Shown in pieces: positions 6,650 through 20,705 of a stretch of 33,897 nucleotides of DNA (its first letter is position 1; each line of letters begins with the position of its first letter). The notes beneath the pieces are model-generated. The model saw only the letters and a list, made by a program, of their open reading frames with translations. It made no database searches and had not been told where the DNA came from. A program made the translations under genes and the position numbers. Origin of the DNA: Bacillota bacterium (GTDB lineage Bacteria > Bacillota > Sulfobacillia > JAJZIM01); assembly GCA_021810565.1 (NCBI GenBank), contig JAJZIM010000032.1, forward strand, positions 1 through 33,897, written 5' to 3'.

Positions 6650-7252
6650 ATGAGTGATGAGAACGAGAAGCTTCCCCCCGGGGAAGTGACGCGGCGCAAG
6701 TTCCTGACCGCGGGGATGGGGGTCATCGGCGGGGTGCTGGGACTGGGGTATCTGGGCATGGGCCTCAAGTACATGTTCCCCCCGGCGCCGATGATGCGCA
6801 CCCCCTGGCAGGAGGTGGGCCTCGTCAAGGATTTCACCATCTCCGACGCCAAGCTGGTGCCCCTGCTCTATCAGGGCCATCGGGACGGCGTTTGGGTGCT
6901 CAAGTGGAGCGACAGCTACGACCACCAGTTCTCCGGCAAGCGGCTGGCCGCTTGTACTCAGCCGGCGCTCAGCGGCAAGGCCGCGACGGCGGAGCGCTAC
7001 GACCACACCAACTCGAACCAGTTCTCCGTGTACGACATGCATTGTCCCCACCTGCACTGTCCCTTCGCCTCCACGGGAACGGGGTTCGCCTGCCCGTGCC
7101 ACGGCAGCCAGTACACTCTGGACGGCTGCCACATCGCGGGGCCGGCGCCCCACGGCCTGTACCTGCACAGCTGGAAGGTTGAGGCGGGCAAGCTGTACGT
7201 GGCGGGCATCTATGGCTACGTGGGCACCCACATGGGTGACCAGAACGCCTGA
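6650..7252 (+). CDS. qcrA: Rieske iron-sulfur subunit of menaquinol:cytochrome c reductase
   Basis: This 200-residue protein carries a TAT-type export/anchor sequence (TRRKFLTAG, twin Arg 15-16) and one membrane helix at about residues 22-42. Its Rieske domain has ligands Cys132 and His134 (CPHLHC box) and Cys148 and His151 (CPCHGS box). Cys137 and Cys150 are placed for the conserved disulfide. It passes electrons from menaquinol at the outer face of the membrane towards cytochrome c. The gene is first in an operon with the fused cytochrome b/c gene 29 nt downstream. A helical insert of some 20 residues precedes the cluster-binding region, within the normal range for Gram-positive QcrA. Confidence 0.93.
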   Translation: MSDENEKLPPGEVTRRKFLTAGMGVIGGVLGLGYLGMGLKYMFPPAPMMRTPWQEVGLVKDFTISDAKLVPLLYQGHRDGVWVLKWSDSYDHQFSGKRLAACTQPALSGKAATAERYDHTNSNQFSVYDMHCPHLHCPFASTGTGFACPCHGSQYTLDGCHIAGPAPHGLYLHSWKVEAGKLYVAGIYGYVGTHMGDQNA

Positions 7253-7281: not shown

Positions 7282-8694
7282 TTGAACGGCATCGTCAAAT
7301 GGTTCGACGAGCGCACGGGCTGGGCCAAGGGGATCCAGGAGTACATGGTCCACCCGGTGCCGCGCCTGGTGAGTCCTTTGGATTTTCTGGGCGTGGCGGC
7401 GCTGTTCTTGTTCATCAACCAGGCCGTGACCGGCATCTTTCTGGCCATGTTCTACGTGCCCTCGGCGGCGTCCTACGCGCCGCATCCGTCCCTGTCCATG
7501 GCCTACGAGAGCATCCTGTTCATCATGTACAAGGTGCCTCTGGGCTGGGTGGTGCGCGACCTGCACTTCTGGGGCGCCAACCTGATGGTGATCGTGGTGG
7601 TGACCCACATGCTGCGGGTCTTCTACGAGGGAGCGTACAAGAAGCCCCGGGAGCTCACCTGGTGGGCCGGCGTGGGGCTTTTGCTCATGACCCTGGCCCT
7701 GGCCTTCACCGGCTACCTCTTGCCCTGGGACCAGCAGTCCTTCTGGGCCACCGCCGTGGGTACGGCCATGTTCAAGTACGCGCCGTTCCTGGGCCACTTC
7801 CTGATGACCATGTTCCAGGGCGGCGAGTTCACCAACAGCCTGACCCTGACCCGGTTCTACTCCCTGCACATGCTGGTGCTGCCGGCGGCGCTGGTGTTGC
7901 TCTTCGCCGTGCACTTCATCATGGTGCTCAAGCAGGGGATGTCCTTCATCGAGGAGGGGGAGGGCGCACCCAAGCAGAAGACGGTGCCCTTCTTTCCCTA
8001 CACGGCCTTTCAGATGAACATCGTGGTGCTGGCCACGGCGGCGGTGCTGCTGGTCATCGCCACCAATTACCTGGCGCCCCTGGTGGCGCCGGCGGATCCC
8101 CTGAACAAGGCCATGTACGTGCCGATCCCCCTGTGGTACTTCTTCTGGGTGTACCAGTTCCTGAAGTGGGTGCCCTACTACCTGGATCCGGTGGGCGTCA
8201 TCGTGATCCCGGCCATCGGCGTGCTGGCGCTCTTGGCTCTGCCCCTCATCGACCGGGGCCCGCATCGGGAGGCCTCCCGGCGCAAGCCCATCATCGCGGC
8301 GGGCGCGGTGGCGGTGGCGGCCTTGGCCGCCCTGACCTACCTGGGCTTCCTGACCGTGCCGACACCCCTGCCCAGCACTCTGGAGGCCCAGGCCCATCCC
8401 ACCTTCTCCGGCACCATCGAGCCGATCCTGACCGGCAACTGCGTCATGTGCCACGGACCCACGGGCGGTGACATGGCGGGACAGGACTTCACCACCTACG
8501 CCGGAGTGATGAAGGGGGGCACCACGCCGGTCAAGGGACCGGTGGTCATCCCGGGCCATCCGAGCAAGAGCCTCATCGTGCTCCACGTGGAGGGCAAGGT
8601 GGCCCCGCGGATGCCCCTGGGGGCTGGACCGTTGCACAAGGCCTGGATCCAGGATATAATCAACTGGATCAAGGAAGGGGCCAAGAACAACTAG
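7282..8694 (+). CDS. Fused cytochrome b / cytochrome c subunit of a bc-type complex
   Basis: This 470-residue protein joins what Bacillus splits into QcrB and QcrC. A cytochrome b6-like part has heme b ligand pairs His95/His109 and His196/His211 (spacings 14 and 15, the b6-type pattern). A subunit IV-like part with further helices follows, and a C-terminal cytochrome c domain has one heme motif, CVMCH at 387-391. Two features are odd. The Qo-site PEWY motif is PLWY (283-286), lacking the usual acidic residue. There is also no cysteine outside the heme c motif, so a covalent heme ci as in b6f and Bacillus QcrB is not possible by the usual bond. The start is TTG after GGGGGAAGGGA. The downstream ccm operon would attach heme c. 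Confidence 0.9.
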   Translation: MNGIVKWFDERTGWAKGIQEYMVHPVPRLVSPLDFLGVAALFLFINQAVTGIFLAMFYVPSAASYAPHPSLSMAYESILFIMYKVPLGWVVRDLHFWGANLMVIVVVTHMLRVFYEGAYKKPRELTWWAGVGLLLMTLALAFTGYLLPWDQQSFWATAVGTAMFKYAPFLGHFLMTMFQGGEFTNSLTLTRFYSLHMLVLPAALVLLFAVHFIMVLKQGMSFIEEGEGAPKQKTVPFFPYTAFQMNIVVLATAAVLLVIATNYLAPLVAPADPLNKAMYVPIPLWYFFWVYQFLKWVPYYLDPVGVIVIPAIGVLALLALPLIDRGPHREASRRKPIIAAGAVAVAALAALTYLGFLTVPTPLPSTLEAQAHPTFSGTIEPILTGNCVMCHGPTGGDMAGQDFTTYAGVMKGGTTPVKGPVVIPGHPSKSLIVLHVEGKVAPRMPLGAGPLHKAWIQDIINWIKEGAKNN

Positions 8695-8715: not shown

Positions 8716-8994
8716 GTGGAGACCATCACCGGCAAGTGCAAGCACGACGTCTACTTCGAGAAGGGCGACCCTTGCTACCACTGCGCATTCTGCACCATCG
8801 ACGGCAACGACTACTCGAAGCTGCGCACCGAGCCGGAGCTGGAACGCAAGCTCATCCGAGTCTACACCTACCGGGGCGACGCGGCCTACGAACTGCCCTG
8901 CGCCGCGTTGGCGGAGGAGTTCCGCCAACGAGTGCGGCCCACGGACCACGTGAAGGTGGTCTTGAGCTTCGAGAAACTGCCTCCCCGAGCGTGA
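8716..8994 (+). CDS. Small Cys-rich protein of unknown function
   Basis: This 92-residue soluble protein starts at GTG, 21 nt after the cytochrome b/c gene and inside the same terminated transcript. Its N-terminus holds Cys8, His10, Cys20, His22, Cys23 and Cys26, the last part forming CxxCxxC (CYHCAFC), which looks like a metal or Fe-S site. Another Cys lies near residue 58. The C-terminal half is plausible alpha/beta with no motif that I know. There is no signal peptide, so it should act in the cytoplasm. Its position suggests a role in assembly or control of the bc complex, but this rests on context alone. Confidence 0.75.
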   Translation: METITGKCKHDVYFEKGDPCYHCAFCTIDGNDYSKLRTEPELERKLIRVYTYRGDAAYELPCAALAEEFRQRVRPTDHVKVVLSFEKLPPRA

Positions 8995-9085: not shown

Positions 9086-9361
9086 TTGCAGCGGCATTTC
9101 TCGGGGGACAAGGCGGAGATGGCCGCCCGATTGCGCAAGGTGGAGGGGCAGGTGCGGGGCATCGCCCGGATGATCGAGGAGGATCGGTACTGCGTGGACG
9201 TGTTGGTGCAGATCGCCGCGGTGCGGGCGGCGCTGAACCAGGTGGGTCTGTCCATCCTGCGCTCCCACACCCGGGGCTGCGTGGCCTCGGCCATCCGGGA
9301 GGGCGACGGCGACGCGGCGGTGGAGGAACTAATCGATACCCTGATGCAGTTTCTGCATTAG
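9086..9361 (+). CDS. csoR: CsoR/RcnR family metal-sensing repressor
   Basis: This 91-residue all-helical regulator of the CsoR/RcnR family has the copper fingerprint Cys36, His61 and Cys65 (SHTRGC), matching the Cu(I) ligands of characterised CsoR proteins. The N-terminal helix is basic and includes the family's KVEGQVRGI motif at 18-26. By family knowledge it releases DNA when Cu(I) binds, inducing copper efflux genes. No copper exporter is next to it, so its targets lie elsewhere. The start is TTG, with GGGGGGAG upstream. It stands alone between the qcr operon and a kinase/regulator pair. Confidence 0.88.
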   Translation: MQRHFSGDKAEMAARLRKVEGQVRGIARMIEEDRYCVDVLVQIAAVRAALNQVGLSILRSHTRGCVASAIREGDGDAAVEELIDTLMQFLH

Positions 9362-9424: not shown

Positions 9425-11167
9425 GTGGGACGCTTGGGCTACAATCGGTTGAAGTGGTACACGGTGATCTTCCCGGTGGTGGGCATTGCCCTGGTGGAGT
9501 TTCTGCAGTTCATGTTGGTGGAGCCGCTTTGGGGCGTGGCCTATGCCGACGCCTTCGGCTTGGTCTTCCTCCTGGGCGGGGCCTATCTCTTCTCGCGCTT
9601 CGTGTTCCGCACCGTGGATCGGATCGACGCCGAGCTGCACCGCAACGAGGAGCGGGTGCAGGCCCTGTTCTCCTCCAGTTCCGACGCCATCGTGGTGCTG
9701 GGGGGCGACGGGGTGGTGCGGGCATTGAATCCCGCCGCCCAACGACTCCTGGGCTGGAGCGCCGAGGAGGCCAACGGGAAACGCCGCTGCACCGAGCTTT
9801 GCGGCTGCGAGGGACCCTGCCGGGGAATGGAGGTGGCCCGCACGCGGCGCGCCGTGCCCTATGTGGAGATGAAGCTGGCCAGCCGGCGGGGCCGGGAGTT
9901 GGCGGTGACCGCCAGCTACTCGCCGCTGCCCACCCGCCACGGTGAGGTGCAGGTGGCGGTGATCATGCGCGATATCACCGAGAAGAAGCGCCTGGAGGAG
10001 GAGGTGGGCCGTCGGCGCCGGGAGGTGGAGGCGTTGTACCTCACGGGACAGGAACTGTCCGCCCTGGACAACCTGGCGGAGGGCATACCGGCGGTGGTGA
10101 CCAAATTGCGGGAGCTGTCGGGCGGCGACGTGGTGGGTTGCGCCGCGCTGGACGAGCGTTGGCGGCGCATGCGCTGGGAGGCGCTGCAGGGGCAACGGGA
10201 GGAGACCACCCTGCGCCATTGTTGGTCGGCCGACGAGGGGCTCACCGCGCAGGTGCTGACCCGCGGCACGCCCCTGACCGGGGACGCCGGGGAGGCGCTG
10301 CCCGGGGAGGCGGTGGAGTCGGCTCTGGCGGTGCCCATCCGGGCCCGGGAGCGGGTCTTCGGCTTCCTCTTGGTCGGCTACCGCCAACCCCACAGCTTCG
10401 GGGGGGAGGAGATCCGCCTGCTGACGGGGGTGGCCACCCAGGCCGGCGTGGCCATGAACAACGCCGAACTGTACCAGCAGGTGCAGGAGATGGCCGTGCT
10501 GGAGGAGCGCGAGCGCCTGGCCCGGGAACTGCACGACGGACTGGCCCAGTCCTTAAGCTACCTGAACCTGAAGCTGCAGACGGTGGAGGCGCAGCTGGAC
10601 GAGGGGAAGATCCGCCAGGCGCAGCGGGAGATGGCGCAGATGCAGAAGGTGGTGGAGGACAGCTACGCCGATGTGCGTCAGGGCATCTTCGCGCTCAAGA
10701 CGAGGATCAGCTCCCCCGGCTTTCTAAACACCCTGGCCGACTACCTGCGCGAGTATCAGGGATCCTGCGGCATCGCAACGGAGCTGCAGTTGGAGCCGGC
10801 GGAACTGGAGCTTAAGCTGTCCCAAGCCGCCGAGATTCAGCTTTTGCGCATCGTGCAGGAGGCCCTGGCCAACGTGCGCAAGCACGCCGGAGCCACCCGG
10901 GTGGAGGTGCAGGTCAGACGCCTGGAACAGACCGTTTCCTGCGTGGTGAGCGACAACGGGCAAGGTTTTGAGCCGGAGCGACCCATCGACGACGCCAACC
11001 ACCACTACGGGCTGTCGGTGATGAGCGAGCGGGCGGAGCTTCTGGGAGGGCATCTGGAGATCGCCAGCCGGCCCGGGGCGGGAACCAGGCTGACGGTGTG
11101 GTTGCCTTATCATGACGAAGGGGTGGTGAACCTACCAGGTGGAACCGGTCAGAGTGTTGCTGTGTGA
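9425..11167 (+). CDS. PAS-GAF sensor histidine kinase (NarL/LiaS-type)
   Basis: This 580-residue membrane-anchored kinase has two hydrophobic segments in residues 10-60, a PAS domain at about 75-190, a GAF domain at about 200-350, a HisKA_3 dimerisation domain with phospho-accepting His370 (RELHDGLAQSL), and a HATPase domain with N-box EALANVRKHA and G-box DNGQGF. It would phosphorylate the response regulator whose gene overlaps its 3' end. Inside the PAS domain, Cys122, Cys126, Cys128 and Cys132 form a CxxxCxCxxxC cluster. This resembles a metal or Fe-S site and could sense oxygen or redox, as NreB does, but the ligand is not proven. Neighbouring respiratory genes support such a role. The start is GTG 9425, after GAAGG; TTG 9434 is possible. 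Confidence 0.88.
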   Translation: MGRLGYNRLKWYTVIFPVVGIALVEFLQFMLVEPLWGVAYADAFGLVFLLGGAYLFSRFVFRTVDRIDAELHRNEERVQALFSSSSDAIVVLGGDGVVRALNPAAQRLLGWSAEEANGKRRCTELCGCEGPCRGMEVARTRRAVPYVEMKLASRRGRELAVTASYSPLPTRHGEVQVAVIMRDITEKKRLEEEVGRRRREVEALYLTGQELSALDNLAEGIPAVVTKLRELSGGDVVGCAALDERWRRMRWEALQGQREETTLRHCWSADEGLTAQVLTRGTPLTGDAGEALPGEAVESALAVPIRARERVFGFLLVGYRQPHSFGGEEIRLLTGVATQAGVAMNNAELYQQVQEMAVLEERERLARELHDGLAQSLSYLNLKLQTVEAQLDEGKIRQAQREMAQMQKVVEDSYADVRQGIFALKTRISSPGFLNTLADYLREYQGSCGIATELQLEPAELELKLSQAAEIQLLRIVQEALANVRKHAGATRVEVQVRRLEQTVSCVVSDNGQGFEPERPIDDANHHYGLSVMSERAELLGGHLEIASRPGAGTRLTVWLPYHDEGVVNLPGGTGQSVAV

Positions 11168-11798
11168 CGATCACGCCCTTTTCCGGCAGGGCATCAAGGG
11201 CGTGTTGGATTCCCAGGCGGACTTCCAGGTGGTGGGGGAGGCGGAGGACGGCCGTCAGGCCGTGGAGCTGGCCCGGGAACTGATGCCGGATCTGATCCTG
11301 ATGGACCTCAACATGCCCGGTCTGGGAGGCCTGGAGGCCACCCGCCTGATCAAGCGGGAGATGCCGGCCATCAAGGTGGTCATCCTCACCGTCTCCGACG
11401 AGGAGGAGAACCTGCTGGAGGCCATCAAGAGCGGCGCCCAGGGGTATCTGCTGAAGAACCTGAAGCTGGAGACCTTCCTTGACTTTTTGCGGGGTGTGTT
11501 CCGCGGCGAGGCGCCCATCTCGCCGCTGATGGCCGGCAAGATCCTGGGGGAATTCGCGCGGCTGGCCACCAAGCCGGCGGAGGTGACCGGGGGCGATGAG
11601 CTCACCGACCGGGAGACGGAGGTGCTGAATCTGGTGGCCCGCGGGTCCACCAACCGGGAGATCGCCACCGCTTTGTTCATCTCGGAGAACACGGTGAAGA
11701 AACACCTGCAGAATATCCTGGAGAAGCTGCACCTGCAGAATCGGGTGCAGGCGGCGGCCTTCGCCCTGCGCCAGGGACTGGGCCGCGAGAAGCCCTGA
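11139..11798 (+). CDS. NarL/LuxR-family response regulator
   Basis: This 219-residue protein has a receiver domain with acidic residues Asp10/Asp11, phospho-acceptor Asp56 (LILMDLNMPG) and the conserved Lys in YLLKN. The C-terminal LuxR-type helix-turn-helix includes LTDRETEVLNLVARGSTNREIA and ISENTVKKHLQNILEKL. Its GTG start lies within the last 29 nt of the kinase gene, so the pair is translationally coupled. It most likely controls respiratory genes, perhaps the adjacent ccm or qcr operons, but I found no operator to prove this. Confidence 0.92.
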   Translation: MEPVRVLLCDDHALFRQGIKGVLDSQADFQVVGEAEDGRQAVELARELMPDLILMDLNMPGLGGLEATRLIKREMPAIKVVILTVSDEEENLLEAIKSGAQGYLLKNLKLETFLDFLRGVFRGEAPISPLMAGKILGEFARLATKPAEVTGGDELTDRETEVLNLVARGSTNREIATALFISENTVKKHLQNILEKLHLQNRVQAAAFALRQGLGREKP

Positions 11799-11855: not shown

Positions 11856-11884
11856 TGGACACCGGGCGGCGAAAGTGCTAGATT
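11856..11884 (+). promoter_or_regulatory. Putative promoter of the ccm operon
   Basis: TGGACA (11856-11861), a 17-bp spacer and TAGATT (11879-11884) lie upstream of ccmE (start 11913). The match to the housekeeping consensus is good but not perfect, in keeping with a regulated promoter. Confidence 0.6.
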
Positions 11885-11912
11885 GGAGCAAAAATCACGG
11901 GAGGTGGTAACG

Positions 11913-12302
11913 GTGGGCCAGCGACGCAAGCTCGTGATGGGAGGGCTTCTGATCGCCGCCGCCGTGGCCTACCTGGGTTGGAACTCCTTCCAGAATTTCT
12001 CCGAGTATTACGTGCCGGTGGCCAAGCTGCTTTCGCAGCAGGCGGTCTACCGCGGGAAGGACGTGCGGGTCCAGGGCAAGATCTTGGCCAACACCGTGAT
12101 CTGGCGTCCCCGCCAGCAGTACCTGCGCTTCGAGTTGGCTGGCGGCGGCAAAGAGCTGCCGGTGGTGTACCACGGCGTGGATCCCAGCAACAACAACCAG
12201 GACGTCAACGCCGTGGTGGAGGGCAAGCTGGTGGGCGGGGTGTTCCAAGCCCGGCGCGTGCTTACCCAATGTGCCACTCACTACAAGGCTCAACAGGGAT
12301 AA
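11913..12302 (+). CDS. ccmE: CcmE, heme chaperone of the CxxxY type
   Basis: This 129-residue heme chaperone has an N-terminal membrane anchor (about residues 6-24) and a periplasmic-side OB-fold domain with VRVQGKIL and the strands expected of CcmE. The heme-binding end reads VLTQCATHYK, with Cys120 and Tyr124, so it is the CxxxY variant instead of the common HxxxY. In the literature the Cys type occurs in sulfate reducers, archaea and some Gram-positives. The protein takes heme from CcmC and passes it to CcmF. I chose GTG 11913 because GGGAGG lies 8 nt upstream; a longer form from TTG 11883 lacks such a site. Confidence 0.9.
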   Translation: MGQRRKLVMGGLLIAAAVAYLGWNSFQNFSEYYVPVAKLLSQQAVYRGKDVRVQGKILANTVIWRPRQQYLRFELAGGGKELPVVYHGVDPSNNNQDVNAVVEGKLVGGVFQARRVLTQCATHYKAQQG

Positions 12303-12314
12303 CGGAGGTAGTTC

Positions 12315-14252
12315 ATGGCCCAACTGGGGCAGTACCTTTTGTATCTGGCCCTGGCGATGTCGCTATATGGGGCACTGAGCAACTGGTTCGGTCGCGGGCG
12401 CTGGGCGGCCAGCGCCCGGGGGGCGGTCTGGGCCCTGGCGTTGGTGAACAGCGGGGCGGTGCTGGTGCTCTTGTACCTGTTGGTCACCTCGGACTTCCGG
12501 GTGGCCTACGTGGTGAACCACACCGACCGCAGCCTGGCCTTGCCCTACAAATTGGCGGCGCTATGGGGAGGCGACGCCGGTTCGCTCTTGTTCTGGGTCT
12601 GGATCCTCTCCCTCTACGCCGCCTATTTGGTTTGGTCCGCCCGGCGGCGGGAGCTCTTGCCCCAATCCCTGGGGGTGCTGGCGGGCATCGCCGTCTTCTT
12701 CCAGGTGCTCCTGGTGGCGGCCGCCCCCCCCTTCGCCCAGCTGGCCCAGGCCCAGCCCGACGGGTTGGGGCTGAATCCTCTGCTGGAGAACCCCATGATG
12801 CTGGTGCATCCGCCCACCCTGTACCTGGGCTACGTGGGCATGGCCGTGCCCTTCGCCTACGGGGTGGCCGCCCTGTGGCACCGTCGCCGGGACTCCGATT
12901 GGCTGCGGCTCACCCGTCGCTGGACGGTGGTGGCCTGGCTGTTTTTGAGCGTGGGCATCGTGCTGGGCGGCATGTGGGCCTATGTGGAGTTGGGCTGGGG
13001 CGGCTATTGGGAGTGGGATCCGGTGGAGAACGCCTCTTTCATGCCCTGGCTCACGGCCACCGCCTTTTTGCACACCGCCGTGGTGGCCGAGCGGCGCCGC
13101 TCCCTAAAGACCTGGACCTTCGCCCTCTTGTTCATCACCTTCTTCCTGACCATTTTCGGCACCTTTCTGACCCGCTCGGGGCTAATCGCCTCGGTGCATG
13201 CCTTCTCCGGCACCAAGGTGGGCCCGTACTTCATCTGGTTCTTGGTCCTGGTGGTGCTCGGCGTGGGCGCCCTGCTGTGGGCGCGGCGGGACCTGCTGCG
13301 GGGGGAACACCCCTTGGAGGGTGCGGCCTCCCGGGAGGCGGCGGTGGCCCTGGCGGCGCTGGTCCTGTTGGGCGCCACCGTCTTGACCCTGATCGGCACG
13401 CTGTCCCCGATCCTATCCGATATCGGCAGCAAGCAGCAGGTGACGGTTAACCCGGCCTTCTTCAGCGCGGCGGTGGTGCCGCTTTTGGTGGCGGTGGTGC
13501 TGATCATGGGGGCGGGTCCCCTGCTCAAGTGGCGGGACACCCCGGGGCGCGCGCTGTGGGAGCGCTTCCGGCTGCCGGTGGCGGCCGGGGGAGTGATGTT
13601 CCTCGTCCTGATGCTCACGGGAATCCACCGGGCGGGCATGGTCGCCGGCGGGACGGCGGCGGCCTTTCTGATCACGGGGGTGGCGCAGGCGCTGGTGTGG
13701 GGGGTGCGGGGCAGGATGCGCGGCCGGGGGGAGGGAGTGGGGAGGGCGCTGGTGGGCCTGGTCGGGGCTGACCGGCGCCGCTGGGGCGGCTACCTGGTGC
13801 ATGTGGCCGTGGCGGTGCTCATGGTGGGGGTGGCCGCCTCAACGTTGTACACCCAGGAGACGACCCAGAACCTGGCGCCGGGACACTCGCTGACCATCGC
13901 CGGCTATCGGTTGACCTATCATCACCTGGACAGCCGGGTGCACGGCCACCACCTGGAGGTGTACGCGCCCTTGGCGGTGAGCGACGGCGCCCGGCCCTTG
14001 GGGACGATGACCCCCCGGGAGTTCTTCCTGCCGGGGCAAACCACGCCGGACTACGCCCGGGTGGCCATCCGCGGCGGCTGGCTGCGGGACGTGTACGTGA
14101 TCCTGGGCTGGGACCCCAAGAACTCAGGCTCGGTGGCCACGGTGCGCGTCCTGGTGGAGCCTTTGGTGTCCTGGATCTGGATCGGGCTGTACCTCCTGGC
14201 GGCGGGGGGAGTCTTCGCCCTGTCGGCCCCGGCCAGGCGGGATCGGCCATGA
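12315..14252 (+). CDS. ccmF: CcmF, cytochrome c heme lyase subunit
   Basis: This 645-residue polytopic membrane protein of the HemeO/CcmF family has the tryptophan-rich WWD motif at residues 228-236 (WGGYWEWDP), followed by ENASFMPWL. The region with HPPTLYLGYVGMAVPFAYG carries a conserved external His. The C-terminal soluble loop and last helix (about 500-640) are typical. CcmF transfers heme from CcmE to CXXCH motifs of apocytochrome c, here presumably including the cytochrome b/c fusion. The ATG follows AACGGAGG, 12 nt after ccmE. The stop overlaps the next gene by 4 nt. Confidence 0.95.
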   Translation: MAQLGQYLLYLALAMSLYGALSNWFGRGRWAASARGAVWALALVNSGAVLVLLYLLVTSDFRVAYVVNHTDRSLALPYKLAALWGGDAGSLLFWVWILSLYAAYLVWSARRRELLPQSLGVLAGIAVFFQVLLVAAAPPFAQLAQAQPDGLGLNPLLENPMMLVHPPTLYLGYVGMAVPFAYGVAALWHRRRDSDWLRLTRRWTVVAWLFLSVGIVLGGMWAYVELGWGGYWEWDPVENASFMPWLTATAFLHTAVVAERRRSLKTWTFALLFITFFLTIFGTFLTRSGLIASVHAFSGTKVGPYFIWFLVLVVLGVGALLWARRDLLRGEHPLEGAASREAAVALAALVLLGATVLTLIGTLSPILSDIGSKQQVTVNPAFFSAAVVPLLVAVVLIMGAGPLLKWRDTPGRALWERFRLPVAAGGVMFLVLMLTGIHRAGMVAGGTAAAFLITGVAQALVWGVRGRMRGRGEGVGRALVGLVGADRRRWGGYLVHVAVAVLMVGVAASTLYTQETTQNLAPGHSLTIAGYRLTYHHLDSRVHGHHLEVYAPLAVSDGARPLGTMTPREFFLPGQTTPDYARVAIRGGWLRDVYVILGWDPKNSGSVATVRVLVEPLVSWIWIGLYLLAAGGVFALSAPARRDRP

Positions 14253-18729: not shown

Positions 18730-18962
18730 TTAGGGTAGGCCCTGCGTTGCTCGGCGCAGGGCCTCGTCTTTGAGGAAGGCTAGGAGGGCGGCAGGATCGT
18801 TTCCGAGCAGCAGGTCGCAGGTGGTCAACCCATCCCCTGGCAGCCATGGGCCCCGGAGGCTTGGAGTGAAACACCGGAAAAGAAAATTATCAGCCGGAAA
18901 GGGAGGAGAAATCTTCGAGTCGCCTAAGAAGAAGCAATGGCGGATTCCAGTTTATTTAGGAA
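18730..18962 (-). pseudogene. Possible C-terminal gene remnant
   Basis: On the minus strand an open frame of some 77 codons ends at TAA (18730-18732). Its last ~35 codons read like real protein (TTCDLLLGNDPAALLAFLKDE, then ALRRATQGLP). It has no ATG and no good ribosome binding site, and it starts inside the end of the gene at 18924. I do not recognise the family. A perfect 10-bp inverted repeat, AGGCCCTGCG/CGCAGGGCCT (18737-18746 and 18755-18764), lies within it and could also end the plus-strand lipoprotein transcript. Confidence 0.3.
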
Positions 18963-19646
18963 GGCGACATGGGCATCCGACGCAAGGGGGGCGGCGCTAT
19001 AGAACTCCTGTCCCGGGCTGACCATGGTGCCCGCCCGAAGCGACAACGTCCAGACATTTTGTGGTCCTATTTGTCCTCCCGGAAAGTCCCCGAGGTAGGA
19101 GGCAGCCTCTTTCACGAAAACGGCATGGATTGCCGGCACGAAAACATCTTGTCGTGCGGCGGCTTCCCCGACGGCCTCCCTCGAGGCTTCAACGAGTTGT
19201 GGCGCCACCAAGGACTGGATCGGGATACGAAGGCGGATGTTGAGTTCGGAGAAATCCCGTTCGGCTTGTGGTTCGGGAAGCACCGAGGCCTTCCCCACCC
19301 CCGGCAATTGCGCCAACACCTGGCGCAATTTGGACCATACACGGTCGATGGCCGAAGACGGACCTCCGACACATATCGCCACACGCCGCGGTTCAAAGTA
19401 GAGATCTCGGATAGAAATATCCGGACCGCTGTCTTCCGACAGAACACCGAGTTGGAAAACCAGACCGACTTCTTGCGGCGGAGGTCCGAAGGTAGCCGGA
19501 GGGAGGCCAAGGCCTGAACCTCGGAATTGAAATGTGTCTCGGATGGCAGCCATGACCGCGGGGAGCATGAGCGTTTGTAGACGGATCCTATCCGGGGGGT
19601 ATTCGTAGCCGCGCCAGGCGGCAATAATGGCATTCACCTCGGCCAT
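18924..19646 (-). CDS. Third gene of a toxin-antitoxin operon, unknown function
   Basis: This 240-residue protein is not one I recognise. It has no signal peptide or membrane helix. The middle part (LYFEPRRVAICVGGPSSAID) reads as alternating beta strands and helices, and the C-terminal half has further strands. It starts at an ATG that shares one base with the stop of the antitoxin gene (TAATG), so it is translated with it. In toxin-antitoxin-chaperone systems the third gene encodes a SecB-like chaperone that protects the antitoxin. This protein is longer than SecB and shows no clear SecB motif. GC content is visibly lower than in the neighbouring housekeeping genes. Confidence 0.75.
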   Translation of the reverse strand: MAEVNAIIAAWRGYEYPPDRIRLQTLMLPAVMAAIRDTFQFRGSGLGLPPATFGPPPQEVGLVFQLGVLSEDSGPDISIRDLYFEPRRVAICVGGPSSAIDRVWSKLRQVLAQLPGVGKASVLPEPQAERDFSELNIRLRIPIQSLVAPQLVEASREAVGEAAARQDVFVPAIHAVFVKEAASYLGDFPGGQIGPQNVWTLSLRAGTMVSPGQEFYSAAPLASDAHVAFLNKLESAIASS

Positions 19647-20323
19647 TAAGAAGCCTCCCTTGTATCAAGGGGGTACATAGGGGGCAAAACGCTGGTATCT
19701 TCGTTAGCCTTTCGGCATGTCGGCGGAGACAATGTTTGGCCATGCAGGCTCAACCCAGGGGATTCGGGTTGTTCTAAATGAGGTATTTTCCCAAATAACC
19801 AGGAGCCTTGCGGCTGCGTAGAGGCCTGGGATAGTTGGTTAGACATCTTCCAGGGGGAGTGAAAATATGATGCTGCGAGATTTATCGGATCCACTTTTTC
19901 CGCTTGGCAATTTAGCATTGACGGCCCCGCCTGCCCTTGCTGTATTGAGCCGGTTGCCTCGAATTTGACGAAGGGTCTGACGGCGTCAAGAGAAGCAAGG
20001 GCCACATTGCTTAAAGATTCCACCCTTTCAAGAACCAAACCGGGCACAAATCCGGCGGCCAGGAAGTACCTGGCCATACGACGGAAAGAAGGAGAGCCGT
20101 CGATGTCACCCTCCAAGGCGGCCACGGCCGACTGCGTCGTATGCGTGCGCCGGGCCATGTCTGCCTGGGTCAGGCCTGCCCGCATCCGAGCCTCCCGCAA
20201 AGCAGCAATCACGTCATTCGTAAGGGTAGCCAAGAGATAGCCCGCCGCCGCACCTTCATCTTCTGCGATCTCGCGCCGGATAACATCGTCCAAGGAAAGG
20301 CTCTTAGTGGTCAAAACAACCAT
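19646..20323 (-). CDS. Xre-family antitoxin with a long C-terminal extension
   Basis: This 225-residue protein has a helix-turn-helix of the Xre/HigA type at about residues 40-95 (REARMRAGLTQADMARRT, then TTQSAVAALEGD). An extension of ~120 residues with no recognised domain follows. HigA antitoxins are usually near 100 residues, so the extension is notable. In chaperone-dependent systems a C-terminal tail of this kind is the chaperone-binding site. I prefer ATG 20323 because ACGGAGGGG precedes it; an ATG at 20353 gives ten more residues. It overlaps the toxin gene end by 20 nt. It would bind DNA to repress the operon and bind the toxin. Confidence 0.8.
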   Translation of the reverse strand: MVVLTTKSLSLDDVIRREIAEDEGAAAGYLLATLTNDVIAALREARMRAGLTQADMARRTHTTQSAVAALEGDIDGSPSFRRMARYFLAAGFVPGLVLERVESLSNVALASLDAVRPFVKFEATGSIQQGQAGPSMLNCQAEKVDPINLAASYFHSPWKMSNQLSQASTQPQGSWLFGKIPHLEQPESPGLSLHGQTLSPPTCRKANEDTSVLPPMYPLDTREAS

Positions 20324-20705
20324 CCTCCCCTCCGTAATCATGTCTGGATGCACGTCGGCACCATTCCATTGCCCGTTGCCTTGCTGTATTTAGGTGATTC
20401 GCTCGGTGTTGGGTGGCTGATTTCCGGCAGACATGAACCCAACACCCGACTTCGCTATCATCGCATTCCACCCAAAAAGCTCGAAAGTTCCGCCCCATCC
20501 GAATAGTTCGCAGAGTTACTCCTGCATTGCGATAGATTTGGGTGAGATCATAGCCGCTTCTGATTTCGTTTGGGCTAGACGCCACGGCCCATTCGATGCC
20601 AAAATTTTTCATTATACCCAGAAGAAACTGGTCGCCATTGCTGCTTTTCAGTCCTGTTACTTCTTTGCGGCAAGAGGGAAGGATTTCGAACTTAGCAGGT
20701 CTCAA
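20304..20705 (-). CDS. HigB/RelE-like toxin
   Basis: This 133-residue protein starts at TTG, 8 nt after AAGGAG. It looks like a RelE/HigB-type ribosome-dependent mRNA interferase: an N-terminal helix with CRKEVTGLKSSNGDQFLLGI, then TLRTIRMGRNFRAFWVE and the late basic motif VHVCRKSATQHRANHLNTAR, where HigB proteins have an F.KK...p..ei..A..R pattern. The order toxin then Xre antitoxin is that of higBA. Upstream lies an AT-rich stretch (20706-20758), a likely promoter region, though I cannot assign clear hexamers. Sequence similarity by eye is moderate. Confidence 0.65.
   Translation of the reverse strand: MRPAKFEILPSCRKEVTGLKSSNGDQFLLGIMKNFGIEWAVASSPNEIRSGYDLTQIYRNAGVTLRTIRMGRNFRAFWVECDDSEVGCWVHVCRKSATQHRANHLNTARQRAMEWCRRASRHDYGGEDGCFDH

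Follow-up and report, generated by a model that had tools for sequence, protein, structure and literature searches.

Which group accepts the second proton at the Qo site of cytochrome bc enzymes is debated, and the evidence comes mostly from mutants of few enzymes. In Rhodobacter capsulatus, function survives the exchange of the PEWY Glu (E295) for a nonprotonable residue, and some organisms are known to have no protonable residue there (PMC10583091). E295V alone is functional and H276F/E295V is not, M154T rescues the double mutant, and in a model of H276F/E295V Met154 contacts residue 295 and Tyr147 (PMC10583091). At the Qi site of the same enzyme, only the double D252/K251 change is described as stopping proton uptake (PMC10583091). 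Simulations give Tyr147 as the first proton acceptor and a heme bL propionate as the last, with Glu295 rarely touching the quinol, and a survey of 9993 sequences in the same source reports that no two of Tyr147, Glu295 and Tyr297 are changed together (PMC12199298). In C. glutamicum, stigmatellin is hydrogen-bonded by Tyr153, the matching Tyr, and not by the motif Asp (PMC8795186). Lineages differ in this motif, whose residue type is reported to correlate with the quinone and with cofactor potentials (PMC9162462).

Here, we describe a cytochrome b gene in a stretch of 33,897 nucleotides from a Bacillota genome (the window, meaning the whole stretch analysed) in which the motif acid is Leu. The change is clade-wide and is joined by changes at residue 152, at the Qi site and in the Rieske partner, none of which was within reach of a preliminary description made from the window alone. 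With moderate confidence, we propose that the gene encodes a menaquinol:cytochrome c reductase belonging to a distinct clade, where joint replacement has affected the proton-handling residues of the two quinone sites.

Relatives, alignment and tree

Relatives were drawn from 61 genomes around the window's genome (29 with a match), from named GTDB species genomes and from the phylum (398 genomes, of which 14 matched at 1e-60). A single-protein scan of the GTDB species genomes gave no relatives; an alignment-based scan of them succeeded, and the best 80 of 592 confirmed loci were used. The Qo motif was readable in 117 of 123 loci. These relatives and later scans, with duplicates (22 names) removed, gave 135 cytochrome b rows. 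Left out were pieces without a readable Qo motif (L024, L026-L030, L147, L174) and pattern matches without cytochrome b (L151, L154-L158, L162-L165, L176-L179). Thirty rows were picked by Asp34 with Gly37, and they form one clade with support of 100/100 when columns 34, 35, 38, 152, 216, 244, 245, 284 and 286 are masked. Among the named members are the cultivable Neobacillus sp. PS3-12 (L031), whose motif is of the PAWY type, and L032, a Bacillota MAG that duplicates L123. The window protein has all the marks of this acid-less clade: a non-acidic residue 284, E/Q152, D34, no acid at 245 and a Rieske protein with CxHL[QEHN]C.

The window gene and its second copy

The features of the locus are as follows.

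6650..7252, +: Rieske [2Fe-2S] protein, partner subunit (Pfam PF00355, 4.7e-7)
7043..7060, +: Rieske Box I, CPHLHC; His codon at 7055-7057 where nearly all others have Gly
7091..7114, +: Rieske Box II, CPCHGSQY, with the potential-raising Ser and Tyr (role: PMC12954380)
7282..8694, +: fused cytochrome b and C-terminal monoheme cytochrome c (Pfam PF13631, PF00033, PF00032, PF00034; bc1 fold match)
7381..7383, +: Asp34, clade-specific helix A acid, adjoining residue 35 (Phe), where b6f has the Cys for heme ci
7564..7566, +: His95, heme ligand
7606..7608, +: His109, heme ligand
7714..7716, +: Tyr145, equivalent by alignment to R. capsulatus Tyr147; invariant in alignment A2
7735..7737, +: Gln152, equivalent to R. 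capsulatus Met154; most relatives that have the motif acid show K/R here
7867..7869, +: His196, heme ligand
7912..7914, +: His211, heme ligand, 15 after His196
7927..7929, +: Leu216; Arg there in 82 of 105 rows outside the clade (b6f Arg207 by alignment)
8011..8016, +: Gln244-Met245, replacing the Lys-Asp pair of the Qi site
8128..8139, +: Qo motif PLWY; Leu284 codon at 8131-8133
8440..8454, +: CVMCH heme c site
8716-8994: protein of 92 aa that contains several Cys and follows cytochrome b-c; nothing matched in Pfam or NCBIfam
9086..9361, +: metal-sensitive (CsoR-type) repressor, a neighbour (Pfam PF02583)
9425-11798: genes for a NarQ/NarX-like PAS sensor kinase and a response regulator, lying within the cluster of bc and cytochrome c maturation genes
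11883..14252, +: CcmE and CcmF, cytochrome c maturation, same cluster (Pfam)

Translation of the fused gene gives 470 residues with one P-x-W-Y, the PLWY at residues 283-286, and two cysteines, 387 and 390, both within CVMCH. The preliminary description was correct on both points, and its claim that Leu takes the place of the Qo acid is borne out as well: in a phmmer alignment with bovine and chicken cytochrome b, PLWY falls on PEWY. This alignment and the single P-x-W-Y rule out a true Qo motif elsewhere in the chain, one of the two objections it had foreseen. The other, a base error at 8131-8133, is rejected because the same motif is present in a second gene copy; the Leu codon, CTG, lies at least two base changes from the Glu codons GAG/GAA. 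With Leu as its second motif residue, the protein falls outside the acid-bearing (PEWY/PDWY) class. The nearest acids by sequence, Asp150 and Asp272, are both common in relatives that have the motif acid, so they do not explain the difference and were rejected as compensation.

In the same alignment, Gln152 falls on the Met of GYVLPWGQM, the stretch across which the Rhodobacter numbering of Tyr147 and Met154 was transferred (from PMC10583091). Tyr145 and the motif Tyr are both retained. The cytochrome b fold with four heme-ligating His is recovered from Pfam, from the His positions, spaced 14/15 in helices B and D, and from a fold search: an AlphaFold2 model of the protein (mean pLDDT 79.6, made without heme, Rieske or quinone) matched bc1 cytochrome b chains in Foldseek, the best being 6nin_A (E 4.6e-16). 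The top PDB sequence scores are to cytochrome b6. The CVMCH of the fused C-terminal domain would provide a c-type heme as electron acceptor.

The second copy of the Rieske and cytochrome b-c genes lies at G000:C82:9786-11192 (L002, L186), is 88% identical and has its own Rieske gene. Between the copies, dN/dS is 0.30 for the cytochrome b part, 0.42 for the c part and 0.15 for Rieske. Both copies look constrained, and the b-part and Rieske values lend no support to a pseudogene or decaying copy. Divergence has been faster in the c domain than in the b part. No cytochrome c maturation genes were recognised beside the second copy, and three tandem related small ORFs (~68-143 aa) directly follow it (L186 11238-12210, -), with GDNVAILL and DCSYL stretches, or close variants, common to all three.

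The Qo acid across the family

An acid at position 284 is found in none of the 30 clade rows, which have L, A, P, V or I, versus 89 of the 105 rows outside. This consistency speaks against chance. The clade motifs are PLWF (9), PAWY (9), PPWY (5), PVWY (4), PLWY (2) and PIWY (1), and those outside are PEWY (82), APWY (11), PDWY (6), PQWY (3), SDWY (1), PPWY (1) and TQWY (1); among all 135 rows, PLWY occurs in the window's genome only. Natural PVWY, PPWF and PDWY motifs, with PVWY in proteobacterial complexes, are reportedly described in a 2014 survey by Kao and Hunte. A search of the open literature for PLWY, PPWY, PVWY, PAWY and PPWF as Qo motifs found no paper. Four acid losses are inferred on the tree: in the window clade, in a PQWY/TQWY group, in an APWY group and in L095 (bacterium HR08). 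Acid loss as such has precedent, non-acidic residues being described in this motif (PMC10583091, PMC9162462).

Several rows deserve separate mention. In the PLWF members (L003, L005, L131-L137; 9 of 30 clade rows), the equivalents of Glu295 and Tyr297 are both replaced, a double change of the kind reported absent from the 9993 sequences (PMC12199298). L095/L169 of bacterium HR08 is a lone PPWY with Glu152 near PEWY rows with Lys152 or Arg152 on the tree; its Rieske Gly is kept, and a second cytochrome b in that genome (L171) is PEWY-type. In L011, L013, L015 and L124, cytochrome b is split and has the Cys for heme ci, yet the motif is PQWY or TQWY and residue 152 is Gln. L016-L023, L085, L098 and L105 combine APWY with Leu152 and retain the Rieske Gly where a Rieske was found.

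Coupling to position 152

Position 152 is Gln in 20 clade rows, Glu in 9 and Thr in 1, that is, Q or E in 29 of 30. Over the 135 rows, all 34 with E/Q152 are non-acidic at 284 and all 71 with K/R152 are acidic; the remaining 30, with neither, divide into 18 acidic and 12 non-acidic. Gain of E/Q152 coincides with three of the four acid losses on the tree and occurs nowhere else. The four loss branches make up 2.7% of tree length, and the chance of three gains falling there by length alone is about 2e-5, a rough figure given that position 152 was picked after inspection, though prompted by the R. capsulatus suppressor. A DNA-level scan for P-W-D-Q-(E/Q)-x-(Y/F), blind to 284, gave 32 places in 28 of 154 genomes of the class; 30 became loci, and two got no locus and were left unread. 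All 28 readable cytochrome b matches, including the window's own two, are non-acidic at 284. The same pattern, applied to the 398 phylum genomes and to 297 genomes from L095's phylum, found no E/Q152 cytochrome b with the acid, the other matches not being cytochrome b.

Against the coupling, the APWY group lost the acid with Leu152 (11/11 rows), the proteobacterial complexes said to have PVWY may be further exceptions, and four acid losses are too few for an independent-pairs test. Against a new Qo acid, the window protein has Gln, not Glu, at 152.

The Qi site and heme ci

The acid at position 245 is absent from all 30 clade rows (Met 27, Ile 2, Ala 1) and present in 100 of 105 outside (Asp 67, Glu 33). 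We identify 245 with the Asp of the Lys-Asp pair from the ungapped alignment of the clade starting at the conserved P-(F/Y)-x-P-Y, and the equivalence rests on that alignment; phmmer instead opens a two-residue gap there. Asp34 was gained once on the tree and is invariant in the clade, with Tyr, Phe, His and others outside, and it may have taken over from the lost pair. At position 216, most clade rows have Leu, Phe or Ile.

The preliminary description had treated the lack of a Cys for heme ci as at odds with a b6-like His spacing. With Cys387 and Cys390 as the only cysteines, the usual thioether is indeed unavailable, but the supposed paradox is the rule: the 14/15 spacing occurs without Cys35 in 30/30 clade rows and 87/105 others (117/135; 17 others have the Cys), so the spacing does not define a b6f-type group. 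We thus reject a heme ci anomaly, this being the ordinary state. Of the features of a b6f enzyme with heme ci, the window protein has the spacing, and it has Phe35 for the Cys and a single ORF for the split PetB and PetD.

The Rieske partner

The window Rieske gene, next to cytochrome b, encodes the Cys/His cluster ligands (CPHLHC...CPCH). The Gly of Box I (C-x-H-L-G-C, as in CTHLGC) is replaced in all 30 clade rows, by Gln in 22, Glu in 4, His in 2 (both copies of the window's genome) and Asn in 2; of the 105 rows outside, 94 have a Rieske found, and 91 of these keep Gly. We take the Box I loop to be the tip that docks on the Qo site. We reject the idea that acid loss is generally accompanied by a Rieske change, as Gly is kept in L095 and in those APWY loci for which a Rieske was found. 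The Ser and Tyr of Box II, reported to raise the cluster potential (PMC12954380), are both kept in the window Rieske; the Ser is Gly in 6 of 30 clade rows, the Bacillota PAWY members.

Acceptor, quinone and gene neighbourhood

A CxxCH follows cytochrome b in 28 of 30 clade rows. In one genus (genomes G008 and G469), cytochrome b is instead fused to a sulfocyanin/rusticyanin-like blue-copper domain (L005 408-1994, +; L137 445-1995, -; PF06525, 1.3e-17 and 3.4e-18), with rusticyanin and copper nitrite reductase as PDB matches. No CcmF was found in these two genomes (97% and 96% complete), which have heme-copper oxidases, whereas it is present in G000 and G049. Blue copper in place of cytochrome c in two rows indicates that the clade tolerates a change of high-potential acceptor.

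The window's genome has a futalosine menaquinone cluster, in which MqnC scores above cut-off (514.7 bits) and a PF02621 protein lies between it and a second radical-SAM homologue. With these genes present, nothing points to an unusual quinone, as the preliminary description had considered. A cbb3-like oxidase is also present, with scores below the NCBIfam cut-offs.

The window cluster runs Rieske, cytochrome b-c, 92-aa protein, CsoR-type repressor, sensor kinase, regulator, CcmE and CcmF. Clusters of this kind recur in other clade genomes, where genes for isocitrate and malate dehydrogenase are often nearby (neighbours judged from ORFs), and the setting looks like that of a main respiratory complex. 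The NarQ/NarX-like kinase raised the idea of a nitrate-reductase-linked complex, which we rejected because no nitrate reductase gene was recognised around the clade genes, by eye among called ORFs (almost none were called for L031). Elsewhere in the window, 18924-20353 (-) holds two adjoining small ORFs, one helix-turn-helix-like by eye, a possible toxin-antitoxin-like pair.

Discussion

In sum, the preliminary reading stands as to the replaced acid and the missing heme ci thioether, falls as to the spacing paradox, and finds no support as to an unusual quinone. Retention of all four His ligands, of Tyr145 and of the Rieske ligands supports a working enzyme. With the PEWY Glu gone, the proton on the heme bL side would be taken by the conserved Tyr145 and could pass via water, aided by the polar residue 152 (Gln in the window protein, Glu in sister groups), to the heme bL propionate or the surface. 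Docking may be adjusted, or a polar contact added, by the residue at the Rieske tip (His in the window, Gln, Glu or Asn in sisters), and at Qi the helix A Asp34 would replace the lost helix E Lys-Asp pair. More specifically, the proton gates may have been moved at both sites, from the PEWY Glu to the cd1-helix residue 152 and the Rieske tip and from the helix E pair to Asp34, with PLWF members that dispense with Glu295 and Tyr297 and one genus that uses blue copper for cytochrome c; this fuller version we advance tentatively, as a possibility somewhat short of probable.

Ordinary variation of a tolerant position, with protons leaving by water and Tyr and the other changes being unrelated lineage markers, is one alternative: E295 is replaceable (PMC10583091), the motif differs by lineage (PMC9162462), many alignment columns set the clade apart from the rest, and the tree holds four acid losses. 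We nevertheless find it rather unlikely in view of the strict split of E/Q152 and K/R152 with the state of 284 over 135 rows, the replacement of the Rieske Gly in 30/30 against 3/94, the Qi acid loss and Asp34 gain in the same clade, and the restriction of 284 within the clade to aliphatic residues or Pro. A different quinone or potential range as the driver appears improbable. Residue type is reported to follow both (PMC9162462), and menaquinone genes stand here alongside a Rieske with both potential-raising residues; yet menaquinone users can keep the acid, as with Asp295 in C. glutamicum (PMC8795186) and PDWY in Salinicoccus and in the Neobacillus split complex (putative menaquinone users), and Bacillota clade members with Gly for the Rieske Ser also lack the motif acid.

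It is very improbable that the full Q cycle has been abandoned for linear menaquinol oxidation, or that heme bH serves another partner. Both Qi residues are lost, and a double change of this pair is the one described as stopping Qi proton uptake in R. capsulatus (PMC10583091), but all four heme His are retained in the clade rows, the invariant Asp34 is a ready substitute, and in several genomes the complex lies beside cytochrome c maturation and TCA genes, as a main respiratory complex would. We retain the joint replacement of proton-handling residues at both quinone sites in a menaquinol:cytochrome c reductase as our reading.

A natural acid-less lineage with defined replacements at 152, at the Rieske tip and at Qi offers ready-made comparisons and concrete mutants, and lineage-wide acid loss with matching second-site and partner changes amounts to a natural test of proton movement in a bc enzyme. 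The PLWF members bear on the reported absence of Tyr147/Glu295/Tyr297 double changes (PMC12199298). In the open literature searched, which did not include the Kao and Hunte survey, we found no description of a clade whose residues at 284, 152, 34/245 and the Rieske tip are jointly replaced.

The window protein resembles cytochrome bc1 of Rhodobacter and mitochondria in its unsplit cytochrome b, four heme His, the Tyr147 equivalent, the Pro, Trp and Tyr of the motif, and its Rieske partner. It differs in having no PEWY Glu, Gln for Met154, Gln-Met for the Qi Lys-Asp pair, a fused c heme and a His spacing of 14/15, where bc1 has 14/14. With cytochrome b6f and Bacillus QcrABC it has in common the 14/15 spacing and the top sequence scores to cytochrome b6, and in Bacillus QcrC the c heme is also fused, there to the subunit-IV part (PMC3475470); unlike them, it is unsplit, has Phe where the Cys for heme ci would be, lacks a motif acid and has Leu for Arg207. 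The R. capsulatus E295V and H276F/E295V/M154T mutants have a nonprotonable motif residue too, with a polar 154 in the triple mutant (PMC10583091), whereas the change described here is natural, clade-wide and accompanied by Qi and Rieske changes. The natural PVWY, PPWF and PDWY motifs likewise appear to be lineage-specific replacements of the motif acid, to which the present clade adds a coupling to residue 152, the Rieske tip and the Qi residues.
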